Source: Halococcus hamelinensis 100A6 (lineage in GTDB: Archaea > Halobacteriota > Halobacteria > Halobacteriales > Halococcaceae). Taken from it: 50,296 nucleotides of DNA. Location: contig NZ_AOMB01000008.1 in the NCBI RefSeq assembly GCF_000336675.1, positions 1-50,296 on the forward strand, in the 5' to 3' direction. Both the position numbers and the translations under genes were made by a program. Positions 20,350 to 23,856 of the stretch are shown piece by piece; the first letter of the stretch is position 1, and each line of letters opens with the position of its first letter. The notes under the pieces were generated by a model that had not been told where the DNA came from, did no database searches, and saw only the letters and a list, made by a program, of their open reading frames with translations.

Positions 20350-22176
20350 TCAGTTGTCGAAGCGCGCCTGGACGAACGGTTTGACGTCCTCGATGTCGCC
20401 GAGCCGTGAGTCGCTGGTGAGGACGGCTTCGGTGTCCTCGATGGGTACCGAGAGGTTCATCTCCTTGGTTCGGCCGTAGCGACCCTTCGAGACCACGACC
20501 GCGTTGACGATCCCGAGCATGTCGAGTTCGGAGATGAGGTCGGTGACGCGGCGCTGGGTCAGGACGTCGGCGTCGATCTCGTCGCAGAGCCGACGGTAGA
20601 TGTTGTAGACCTCGCCGGTGTTGATGTTCTTCGCGCCCTTGCGTTCGAGGAGGATGACCGCGAACAGCACGACCTTCGACTGGGTGGGGAGGGTGCGGAC
20701 CACCTCGACCACCCGGTCGATCTCGATCTTCTCCTGGGCCTCGCGAACGTGGTCCTCGTCGACCCGGTCGGTCTGGCTCCGTTCGGCGAGTTCGCCGGCG
20801 GTCCGCAGGAGGTCGAGCGCGCGCCGGGCGTCGCCGTGTTCCTGGGCGGCGAAGGCCGCACAGAGCGGGATGACGTCCTCCGAGAGCGCGTCGTCGACGA
20901 ACGCGAGCGTCGCGCGCGCGGCGAGGATGTCCCGGAGTTGGGTCGCGTCGTAGGGCGGGAAGACGATCTCCTCCTCGCCCAGGGAGGACTTCACCCGGGG
21001 GTCGAGGAACTCGGTGAACTTGAGGTCGTTCGAGATCCCCATGATCGAGACCCGCGAGTTGTCGAGCTCGGAGTTCATCCGCGAGAGATTGTAGAGGGTG
21101 TCGTCGCCCGACTTCTCGACGAGTTTGTCGATCTCGTCGAGCATGATCACGACGACGCGTTCGCGGTAGTCCACCGCGTCGAAGAAGGTGGCGTAGACCC
21201 GGTCGGTGGGCCAGCCGGTCATCGGCACCGGCTCGAACTCGGCGAGGTCGGCTTCCAGCTCCTCGACCCGGTCCCCGACGTCGTCGACGGTGTCGAACTC
21301 GGTTCCGTCGAGCGCCGCCGGGTCCGTCTCGGCACGGTCGGCGAGCTCGCGAACCTCGTCGAGGCGGGTCTCGACGTGTCGCTGGTTGGCCTCGATGAAG
21401 GTGTTCGCGAGCTGGGCGAGCACTCGGTACTGGGTGTCGGTGACCTCGCAGTTGATGTACTCGACCTCACAGGGGACGTCGTACTTCTGGGAGGTGGTTT
21501 CGAGCTCGTTGCTCACGAACTTCGCGCTCGCGGTCTTTCCCGTCCCCGTCTTGCCGTAGATCAGGATGTTCGAGGGGGTCTCCCCACGGAGCGCGCCGAC
21601 GAGGATGGTCGCCATGTTGTTGATCTGCTCGTTGCGGTGCGGGAGGCGCTCGGGGGTGTAGGAGGGCCGCAGTACGTCCTTGTTCTCGAAGATCGGGTCG
21701 CCGCTCAGGAGGTCGTCGAACAACCCCTGGGAGGAACTCCCCCCACTCCCCCCGCCCTCCGGGGAGGGGGTCGGGTCCGTGACCGGAGCCATCCCGTCGT
21801 CGGCGCTCGGGTCGGACGGCGATCCGGGCTCGTCCGTGGAGTGAACCGCGAACGGGTCGGAGTCGGTGGAGTCGGCCTCCGTCGCAGGCCGGCGGCCCGG
21901 TCGGTCGGCCTCGCTTGTGGCCTCCTCGACGGCGGGGTCGTCCGGGATATCGAGGTCGTCCCCGATATCAGAGTCATTCGAGAGGTCGGAGTCGTCCGGG
22001 AAGTCGGACTCATCCGGGCGAGACTCTTTCGGGATATCGGGGTCGTCGGCGATGTCGGAATCCTCCGTGTCGTCGGGGTCGTTCGCGTCGGCTCCCCCGT
22101 TGTCGGCATCGCGCTCTACCTCCGGAGAGGTCTCCTCGCCGTCGTGGTCGTCGGGTGTCGGGTCGTCTCGTGTCAT
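20350..22176 (-). CDS. orc1: Orc1/Cdc6 replication initiator with long acidic N-terminus
   Basis: A 608-residue AAA+ origin-binding protein. The conserved part starts near residue 155 (FDDLLSGDPIFENKDVLRPS). Walker A is IYGKTGTGKTAS at about 206-217, Walker B VVVIMLDEID at 341-350, sensor-1 SIMGISNDLKF, and the C-terminal winged helix has TQRRVTDLISELDML and SKGRYGRTKE. It ends VQARFDN, like the oriC1-linked Orc1 of Haloferax as I remember it. The first 150 residues are an Asp/Pro/Ser-rich region with irregular repeats such as DSDIADDPDIP, which I do not expect in homologues. The origin lies directly upstream, so it probably binds and autoregulates there. Confidence 0.96.
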   Translation of the reverse strand: MTRDDPTPDDHDGEETSPEVERDADNGGADANDPDDTEDSDIADDPDIPKESRPDESDFPDDSDLSNDSDIGDDLDIPDDPAVEEATSEADRPGRRPATEADSTDSDPFAVHSTDEPGSPSDPSADDGMAPVTDPTPSPEGGGSGGSSSQGLFDDLLSGDPIFENKDVLRPSYTPERLPHRNEQINNMATILVGALRGETPSNILIYGKTGTGKTASAKFVSNELETTSQKYDVPCEVEYINCEVTDTQYRVLAQLANTFIEANQRHVETRLDEVRELADRAETDPAALDGTEFDTVDDVGDRVEELEADLAEFEPVPMTGWPTDRVYATFFDAVDYRERVVVIMLDEIDKLVEKSGDDTLYNLSRMNSELDNSRVSIMGISNDLKFTEFLDPRVKSSLGEEEIVFPPYDATQLRDILAARATLAFVDDALSEDVIPLCAAFAAQEHGDARRALDLLRTAGELAERSQTDRVDEDHVREAQEKIEIDRVVEVVRTLPTQSKVVLFAVILLERKGAKNINTGEVYNIYRRLCDEIDADVLTQRRVTDLISELDMLGIVNAVVVSKGRYGRTKEMNLSVPIEDTEAVLTSDSRLGDIEDVKPFVQARFDN

Positions 22177-22450
22177 GGCAGTTCGGTGTTCGGAACCCCT
22201 TGCTTTCGGATGGAGGACGCACCACGCATACCCGGAAGAGAGCGAATATCATGTGCAGAAGACGGCTACGGGGGTATGAGACGAACGGTGGTACGTGCGT
22301 CCGTCGTGAATCGTCCAGCGGAACCAGAGGTGGGGAGTATATTAATCTTGTCGATCGAACGATCGAAGGAATCCGCCGACCCCGGTCGGTCCGATTTCAC
22401 CGGGTCCGACACTGGCTGGTTCCTCCCTATCCGACCTCTTCCGGTCCCTT

Positions 22451-22486
22451 CCGATCCTACCGATCCTACCGACCCTACCGACCCTT
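22451..22486. repeat. Four-unit 9-bp tandem repeat in the origin region
   Basis: Units CCGATCCTA, CCGATCCTA, CCGACCCTA and CCGACCCTT follow each other without gaps. Strand composition is strongly pyrimidine-biased over about 22420-22500. This may be a polymorphic spacer or part of the origin's non-B DNA. Confidence 0.75.
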
Positions 22487-22703
22487 CCGATCTCGGCGTC
22501 GTGGCGCAGAACCCGTTCCGGACGATCCGACTCGACGGACGACGACCACGATTTCGGACCGAACCCCGTGGGAACGGTCCCACTTTCGTTTGCAGGGGGA
22601 GTGCACCGTCGTCCGAAGCGAGTTCATCGACGGAAGCGAGCTCCATCAGCGGTCGAACGGATTGGGAGTGTCGCATATCCAATACTTGATGACGGTAGCC
22701 CCC

Positions 22704-22726
22704 CACCCCTTTGTTTCGAGTGGAAC
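22704..22726 (-). other. Origin recognition box (ORB), left
   Basis: On the minus strand the box begins GTTCCACTCGAAAC and ends AAAGGGGTG. It matches the right box at 21 of 23 positions in the opposite orientation, 290 bp apart. Haloarchaeal ORBs bound by Orc1 have this dyad-like core plus a G-string. Confidence 0.75.
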
Positions 22727-22845
22727 GGGGAGAGAGGGGGATGGGGTTCGGAGAGGGAGTTTACCGAGGAAAGAACTAAGTGATAGCCATGAGAACAGCA
22801 ACCGAAGAAGAGAAAGAGAAATCGTTCTCACTAGTTGTGGTTGTT

Positions 22846-22907
22846 TCTAGATTCCGTCTAGATCGTCTCTAGATCGTTTCCGTTTACCGTTCTTGATGAT
22901 CTCTAGA
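22846..22907. repeat. TCTAGA array with 11-bp phasing in the origin AT-rich region
   Basis: TCTAGA occurs at 22846, 22857, 22868 and 22902. The first three are exactly 11 bp apart and the fourth is 34 bp further on. A fifth CTAG is at 22831. CTAG is normally rare in haloarchaeal DNA, so five copies in 76 bp are striking. The array lies between the two ORB boxes. Confidence 0.8.
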
Positions 22908-22993
22908 CCAGTTCGGACGGGATACCATCGATTCGGTCGAGACCACGCCGAACCACCGTCCCGATCCCATCCACACCGACGGGGCCGATCCGG

Positions 22994-23016
22994 GTTCCAC
23001 CCGAAACGAAGGGGTG
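22994..23016 (+). other. Origin recognition box (ORB), right
   Basis: It begins GTTCCACCCGAAAC and ends GAAGGGGTG, followed by a longer G-run to about 23020. With the left box it forms an inverted pair flanking the AT-rich element. Confidence 0.75.
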
Positions 23017-23160
23017 GGGGTGTCGGCGGGGGATATGCGTGATAGGAATATCTTCGTAGCCACCAGCCTCGCGATACCGGCGGACGTACTACCCAGCGGG
23101 TGGAGCGGCTATCCGGACGAGGGGGACGGTATCCAAAGCCTGATACGTGTCTGACGTGGG

Positions 23161-23223: not shown

Positions 23224-23856
23224 ATGGGACTGCTCACTGGACTCCGGAACAGCATTTCGAACTTCTTCACGGGCGGGCAGAAACAGCGCCGTATCGGTAT
23301 CTACGGACCGCCGAACGCCGGCAAGACCACGCTCGCGAACCGGATCGCGCGCGATTGGACCGGCGACGCGGTGGGGCCCGAAAGCCAGGTTCCACACGAG
23401 ACCCGCCGAGCCCGTCGGAAGGAGGACATCGAGATCGAACGCAACGGCAAATCCGTCACCATCGACATCGTCGATACGCCCGGTGTCGCCACCAAGGTCG
23501 ACTACACCGAGTTCCTCGACCACGACATGGAAAAGGACGACGCGGTCCGGCGCTCGCGCGAGGCCACCGAGGGCGTCGCGGAGGCGATGCACTGGCTCCG
23601 CGAGGACGTCGACGGCGTTATCTACGTGCTCGACTCGGCGGAGGACCCGTTCACGCAGGTCAACACCATGCTGGTGGGGATCATCGAGAGTCAGGATCTC
23701 CCGGTTCTGATCTTCGCCAACAAGATCGACCTCGAGGAATCGAGCATCCAGCGGATCAAGAACGCCTTCCCGCAGCACGAAACGGTGCCGCTCTCGGCGC
23801 TCGAAGGGGAGAACATGGACGAAGTGTACGAAAAGATAGCGGAGTACTTCGGCTGA
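23224..23856 (+). CDS. arvA: Era-like small GTPase ArvA/OapA
   Basis: A 210-residue GTPase with G1 GPPNAGKTT (residues about 28-36), G3 DTPG, G4 FANKID and G5 SALEG. It has a basic N-terminus (LLTGLRNSISNFF) that could be amphipathic. Homologues are the origin-associated GTPase genes (oapA) next to haloarchaeal oriC1. In Haloferax the same GTPase has been reported to drive extracellular vesicle formation (ArvA). The stop codon overlaps the arvB start (TGATG), implying coupled translation. Its conserved place by the origin is unexplained. Confidence 0.92.
   Translation: MGLLTGLRNSISNFFTGGQKQRRIGIYGPPNAGKTTLANRIARDWTGDAVGPESQVPHETRRARRKEDIEIERNGKSVTIDIVDTPGVATKVDYTEFLDHDMEKDDAVRRSREATEGVAEAMHWLREDVDGVIYVLDSAEDPFTQVNTMLVGIIESQDLPVLIFANKIDLEESSIQRIKNAFPQHETVPLSALEGENMDEVYEKIAEYFG

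Follow-up and report, generated by a model that had tools for sequence, protein, structure and literature searches.

Clusters of CTAG that flank haloarchaeal orc1/cdc6 genes have been described before, and they correlate with an orphan methyltransferase (Blow et al. 2016, PMC4752239, Fig. 6D). Densities in that study were calculated in 500-bp windows, its running text prints the motif as CATG, and the words 'spacing' and 'periodic' are absent from the text. A paper of 2019 still described both the role of CTAG methylation and the reason why haloarchaea keep the orphan enzyme and avoid its target as open questions (PMC6471742), and a role in replication has been doubted on the basis of work in Haloferax volcanii (PMC5867850). 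For the GATC motif, cooperative binding by SeqA is best when the sites lie on one helical face (PMC3749930).

The window that we analysed, a stretch of 50,296 nucleotides from Halococcus hamelinensis 100A6, contains a cluster of the kind described by Blow et al.: it is non-coding and upstream of orc1/cdc6, and it is accompanied in the genome by a methyltransferase orthologue and by no MjaI-family nuclease. The initial annotation of this DNA had missed that clustering of CTAG at haloarchaeal origins was already published. Five of the eight CTAGs in the window fall within 76 bp between the inverted ORBs of oriC1 (Table 1). The central three follow each other in steps of 11 bp, the outer two stand 16 and 34 bp off, and four of the five are part of TCTAGA (at 22846, 22857, 22868 and 22902); the initial annotation had these positions right, and it also placed the array correctly between two inverted ORBs. 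The ORBs bound the array on both sides, and the whole lies between the divergent orc1/cdc6 gene and an OapA-like GTPase gene. The stretch had been called AT-rich, which is true relative to its flanks (38–40% A+T): the inter-ORB DNA has 49% A+T and the array itself 58%. The position of the G-rich tract just inside the left ORB matches that of the enhancer of Haloarcula hispanica oriC1 (PMC3936714). Between orc1 and the left ORB, at about 22440–22495, there is also a pyrimidine-rich short tandem repeat (CCTACCGATCCTACCGACCCTACCGA).

Table 1. Features of oriC1 in the window. ORBs were scored with a position weight matrix (PWM) built from 201 ORB pairs of haloarchaeal oriC1.
Feature	Position	Strand	Evidence
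orc1/cdc6 initiator gene of oriC1, start codon uncertain	20350..22176	-	NF001625 ORC1-type DNA replication protein, E 2.7e-195
Left ORB with outward G-string	22699..22730	-	PWM 50 bits; 88% complementary to right ORB
G-rich tract just inside left ORB	22727..22746	+	read from sequence
Degenerate copy of AAACAGTATCCGYA origin element	22793..22806	+	2 mismatches to GAACAGTATCCGTA
CTAG site 1	22831..22834	.	sequence
CTAG site 2, within TCTAGA	22847..22850	.	sequence + alignment to relatives
CTAG site 3, 11 bp from site 2	22858..22861	.	sequence + alignment
CTAG site 4, 11 bp from site 3	22869..22872	.	sequence + alignment
CTAG site 5	22903..22906	.	sequence + alignment
Right ORB, inverted, outward G-string	22990..23021	+	PWM 49 bits
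Conserved GTPase gene on oriC1 side	23224..23856	+	in 387/392 genomes of the order; adjoins ORB pair in most stretches

The scarcity of CTAG, and the improbability of such a cluster by chance, are borne out by counts. The window has 8 copies against the 64 expected from dinucleotide shuffles of the 50 kb, and in a 189-kb sample of the genome coding DNA has 0.09 CTAG/kb and non-coding DNA 0.64/kb; the intergenic frequency of the motif is not an ordinary one. At the non-coding rate, the Poisson probability of five CTAGs in 76 bp is about 2e-9. The 3.4-Mb genome contains one other triple cluster of CTAG, on the low-GC contig C3 (L051:9799-9840, equivalent to G000:C3:116798-116839), which adjoins universal-stress-protein-like genes; no orc1 gene is present among the ORFs around it, and none of the three other orc1 paralogues of the genome has a CTAG cluster.

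We compared the array with 47 named contigs and the genomes of the order, which together gave 210 loci with an inverted ORB pair, representing 194 distinct origins. Across these 194 origins, CTAG reaches 11.7/kb in the inter-ORB DNA, and its density drops to 0.98/kb in flanks of 600 bp and to 0.23/kb farther out. Between the ORBs, CTAG reaches 3.1 times its dinucleotide expectation, the highest value of the 16 palindromic tetramers. The words ATAT and TATA are likewise over-represented there, as might be expected of a flexible or unwinding element in which the TpA steps of CTAG, further weakened by m4C, help melting and the phasing places strand opening. The location of the array in the middle of a relatively A+T-rich, ORB-bounded stretch would also suit such an element, but TTAA and AATT show no enrichment between the ORBs of the 194 origins.

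In pairwise alignments of same-family origins, CTAG ranks first of 255 tetramers for retention, at 46% against 8.4% for words of equal G+C count; the pairs are non-independent, and the retention figures given here therefore describe a pattern and are not significance tests. By family, retention is 75% in f7, 47% in f4, 44% in f17, 29% in f6, a modest 21% (against 9%) in f1, the family of the window itself, and 10% in f5, in which the methyltransferase has mostly been lost. Within f5, retention is 20% for pairs in which both genomes have the enzyme and 1% for pairs in which both lack it, RM-type enzymes being counted as present. In f7, which we call Natrialbaceae-type from comparison with named loci, CTAG columns are 87% conserved, compared with 58% for other inner columns. 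Origins of Haloarcula and of the Natrialbaceae type carry 5–9 CTAG sites, and in genus g51, presumably Haloferax, oriC1 has only 2–3.

The conserved unit is CTAG itself. In the nearest relative (G077), CTAG is kept at four of the five sites and the adjacent letters have changed (for example, to CTAGT and CCTAGA), and bases outside the motif show only a weak preference for A/T. The sites are thus conserved in relatives, as the initial annotation had proposed to check, and the TCTAGA hexamer that it took as the unit is ruled out as the recognition sequence.

Spacing is constrained too, most clearly in f7, where one fixed layout (61-110-130-152-162-193 from the left ORB, including steps of 10, 20, 22 and 31 bp) recurs across about 20 genera. 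Sites 2 and 6 stand 82–83 bp apart in 19 of 19 f7 genomes, and the stretch to the right ORB varies between 102 and 145 bp. Outside f7, neighbours 10–11 bp apart number 10.7 against 3.95 ± 1.33 expected, a 2.7-fold excess reached in 0 of 1,000 placements, and the 10.5-bp phase, when summed over longer distances, does not reach significance. A periodogram peaks at 10.25–10.5 bp with z of about 9–11 (about 9 with one origin per genus), but this peak mostly reflects the inherited layout of one family, and we dropped the idea of a universal 10.5-bp phasing. The suggested phasing on one DNA face is clear for the Natrialbaceae-type family and only partly supported elsewhere, where longer-range phase falls short of significance.

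These data bear on a neutral account, according to which A+T-rich non-coding DNA just tolerates a word that is avoided elsewhere, with the 11-bp spacing of the window left by local tandem duplication. The three 11-bp units of the window share TCTAGATCGT, so local duplication may have made them, and flanks at 10–11-bp spacing are slightly more alike than others (0.33–0.36 compared with 0.25). Given the three-fold excess over dinucleotide expectation, the rank of CTAG as the best-retained tetramer and a spacing fixed over about 20 genera, the neutral account is refuted as a general explanation and we consider it highly improbable, although the 11-bp units of Halococcus may have originated by duplication. 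The fixed spacings and the 10–11-bp neighbours could instead indicate cooperative contacts on one face by an origin protein, an activator or repressor of firing for which CTAG is the binding site; methylation would then be optional, and the methyltransferase would modulate or compete. Some repressors are known to kink CTAG (PMC6471742). We find such a protein rather unlikely as the main explanation, as conservation ends at the four bases of the methyltransferase, apart from the weak outer A/T preference, and the sites vanish where the orphan enzyme is missing.

A candidate for that enzyme is encoded in the genome of the window at C17:75214-76287. This protein of 358 amino acids is 51% identical to the methyltransferase of pFZ1, which adjoins a MjaI-family nuclease and which we take to be M.MthZI. 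The specificity of M.MthZI is CTAG (PMC5867850), and by homology the enzyme of the window's genome is predicted to be active and to have the same specificity. No MjaI-family nuclease (RE_MjaI, PF09568) was found in this genome, which is 96% complete. At a threshold of E 1e-20, 349 of the order's 392 genomes have the methyltransferase, and its losses are concentrated in f5. Most losses were re-checked with all candidates scored, and apparent weak matches, which are mostly full genes with a small insertion, were counted as present. In G215, G247, G286, G387 and the second copy of G351, the methyltransferase seems to have a short insertion near residue 215, with the frame continuous.

The nuclease occurs in only 15 of the 392 genomes, none of which belongs to the genus of the window. 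Complete CTAG RM pairs, with the nuclease beside the methyltransferase, were found in five f5 genomes of g8 and in G127, G115 and G351. Haloarchaea with such pairs are few (G177, G230, G235, G289, G360, G127, G115 and G351) and belong mostly to lineages without the orphan enzyme. In a tree that included two RM enzymes, those of G177 and G235, both branch outside the other haloarchaeal enzymes with modest support.

Origin CTAGs and the orphan enzyme are mostly kept or lost together. Where the orphan enzyme is present, origins have a mean of 4.25 CTAGs and 6% have none (n = 126); where it is absent or RM-only, the mean is 0.35 and 74% have none (n = 34), and RM-only genomes with a readable origin have 0–1. 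Phylogenetic regression of orphan versus absent or RM-only gives t = 3.3 (5.2 on square roots), with the split between orphan and RM enzymes made after a first, weaker analysis (t = 1.45). That first comparison, of presence and absence only, is weak after phylogenetic correction owing to the CTAG RM pairs of Halorubrum-type genomes. The orphan enzyme has been lost only a few times (6 changes on the tree, 4–6 independent pairs); of four well-supported independent pairs, at a threshold of two CTAGs, 2.9 run in the expected direction and none against, which is not significant. Exceptions include six genomes with an orphan enzyme and no origin CTAG (G143, G330, G250, G084, G041 and G102), and one genome, G116 (79% complete), that has four CTAGs and no detected enzyme.

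A pair of elements unrelated to CTAG serves as an internal control: TTTAW precedes AAACAGTATCCGYA by 18 bp, and the pair has the left ORB on one side and most CTAGs on the other. Counted from the left ORB, AAACAGTATCCGYA itself lies at +90 to +105 in most families. The whole two-part element, which in L127–L256 stands at about +70 to +105 on the same count, is found in most haloarchaeal oriC1. With and without the orphan enzyme, respectively, the AAACAGTATCCGYA element occurs in 71% and 59% of origins and TTTAW in 63% and 65%, whereas the share with at least two CTAGs is 85% and 3%. Genomes without the orphan enzyme also still keep their ORBs. As TTTAW/AAACAGTATCCG persists while CTAGs fall, the loss is specific to CTAG and is not a decay of the origin. 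In some Halorubrum-type genomes (L135, L137, L140, L142, L143, L153 and L154), oriC1 synteny is broken, with the GTPase gene and the nearest orc1 match about 9–11 kb apart.

The same comparison weighs against an unwinding element. Its deformability should be the same with or without a methyltransferase, whereas the CTAGs disappear together with the orphan enzyme, and genomes with CTAG RM pairs presumably methylate CTAG but have 0–1 origin CTAGs. Because the CTAGs disappear while the rest of the origin is kept, the purely mechanical element that had been suggested for this array fits poorly, and we regard it as unlikely. The two-part TTTAW/AAACAGTATCCGYA element may act as an intra-origin promoter or as a further site for an initiator. 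If it is a promoter, which could transcribe orc1, the GTPase gene or some non-coding RNA, the CTAGs could regulate its activity and not replication itself; the conserved TATA-like TTTAW, 18 bp before AAACAGTATCCG and upstream of most CTAGs, would agree with this, as does the enrichment of CTAG upstream of transcription starts in Haloferax lucertense (PMC11001535). Such a role is improbable in our view: the array, in non-coding DNA on the upstream side of orc1, is separated from the start of the GTPase gene by about 320 bp and from that of orc1 by 650 bp, the TATA-like element stays where CTAGs are gone, and the locus has no match in Rfam. Searches of the locus for a bacterial-type promoter or a terminator returned none.

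In the stretch that the ORBs of oriC1 enclose, CTAGs are retained selectively, as that tetramer and with constrained spacing, and almost only in lineages that have the orphan methyltransferase. Conservation and enrichment give good support to the initial proposal that the sites between the ORBs form a second class of origin site. The evidence from the array indicates that the origin retains a methyltransferase target for some function linked to the orphan enzyme, and suggests a role for DNA methylation in marking or controlling the origin, comparable to that of Dam methylation in E. coli. Our preferred reading, to which we assign a probability of about 0.5, is that the orphan CTAG m4C methyltransferase has its origin-bound targets in the array and that hemimethylation of the array is read after firing. 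Fully methylated CTAGs would mark a replication-competent origin, and firing of oriC1 would render all sites hemimethylated at once. The hemimethylated cluster, with sites one to three helical turns apart, might then be bound cooperatively by a putative reader; alternatively, hemimethylation could directly alter the loading of Orc1 or MCM. Restoration of full methylation by the methyltransferase would end the block and so provide a refractory period, a signalling role that we propose by analogy with Dam/SeqA. More tentatively, the system could amount to origin sequestration by m4C, in which the orphan enzyme and a putative reader act on helically spaced hemimethylated CTAGs and which would be independent in origin of Dam/SeqA. 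Where the initial annotation had suggested that an unknown protein might read the array, the first actor is probably the known family of orphan m4C methyltransferases. No reader protein was found: no gene is conserved beside the methyltransferase gene, hence its neighbours include no candidate, SeqA-like or other.

Two results from Haloferax volcanii count against an origin mark: a deletion strain without CTAG methylation grows without a defect, and CTAG enrichment was seen at oriC2 only (PMC5867850). Our alignments point to better test species than Haloferax, namely those with Haloarcula and Natrialbaceae-type origins, and they also provide the exact sites to alter and an internal control element. 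If the preferred reading is true, DNA methylation would time replication in organisms with a eukaryote-like initiator.

Several described systems resemble this locus. The CTAG RM systems of the M.MthZI/MjaI type have a related enzyme, as the identity to the pFZ1 protein indicates, but include a nuclease of the MjaI family that the genome of the window lacks. Haloarcula hispanica oriC1 shares the inverted ORBs with G-strings, the A+T-rich core and the location beside orc1/cdc6; however, mutations in that study hit the ORBs, the G-strings and a G-rich repeat, and its main text is without CTAG (PMC3936714). The clusters of Blow et al. (the HVO_0794 family) have the same motif, place and correlation with the methyltransferase, to which we add the spacing, the confinement by ORBs, the conservation of individual sites and the contrast between orphan and RM enzymes. 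ORB confinement, site-level selection, constrained spacing, the orphan-versus-RM contrast and the control element appear to be new among the open-access papers searched. A parallel in function would be Dam/SeqA at E. coli oriC, where the targets of an orphan enzyme (GATC) similarly cluster in the origin and the clusters track the enzyme; the GATC sites stand at multiples of one helical turn, a spacing that is clear for CTAG in the Natrialbaceae-type family and partial elsewhere. The haloarchaeal case differs in that the mark would be m4C instead of m6A, the origin is served by Orc1/MCM instead of DnaA, and CTAG is globally avoided, whereas GATC is common.
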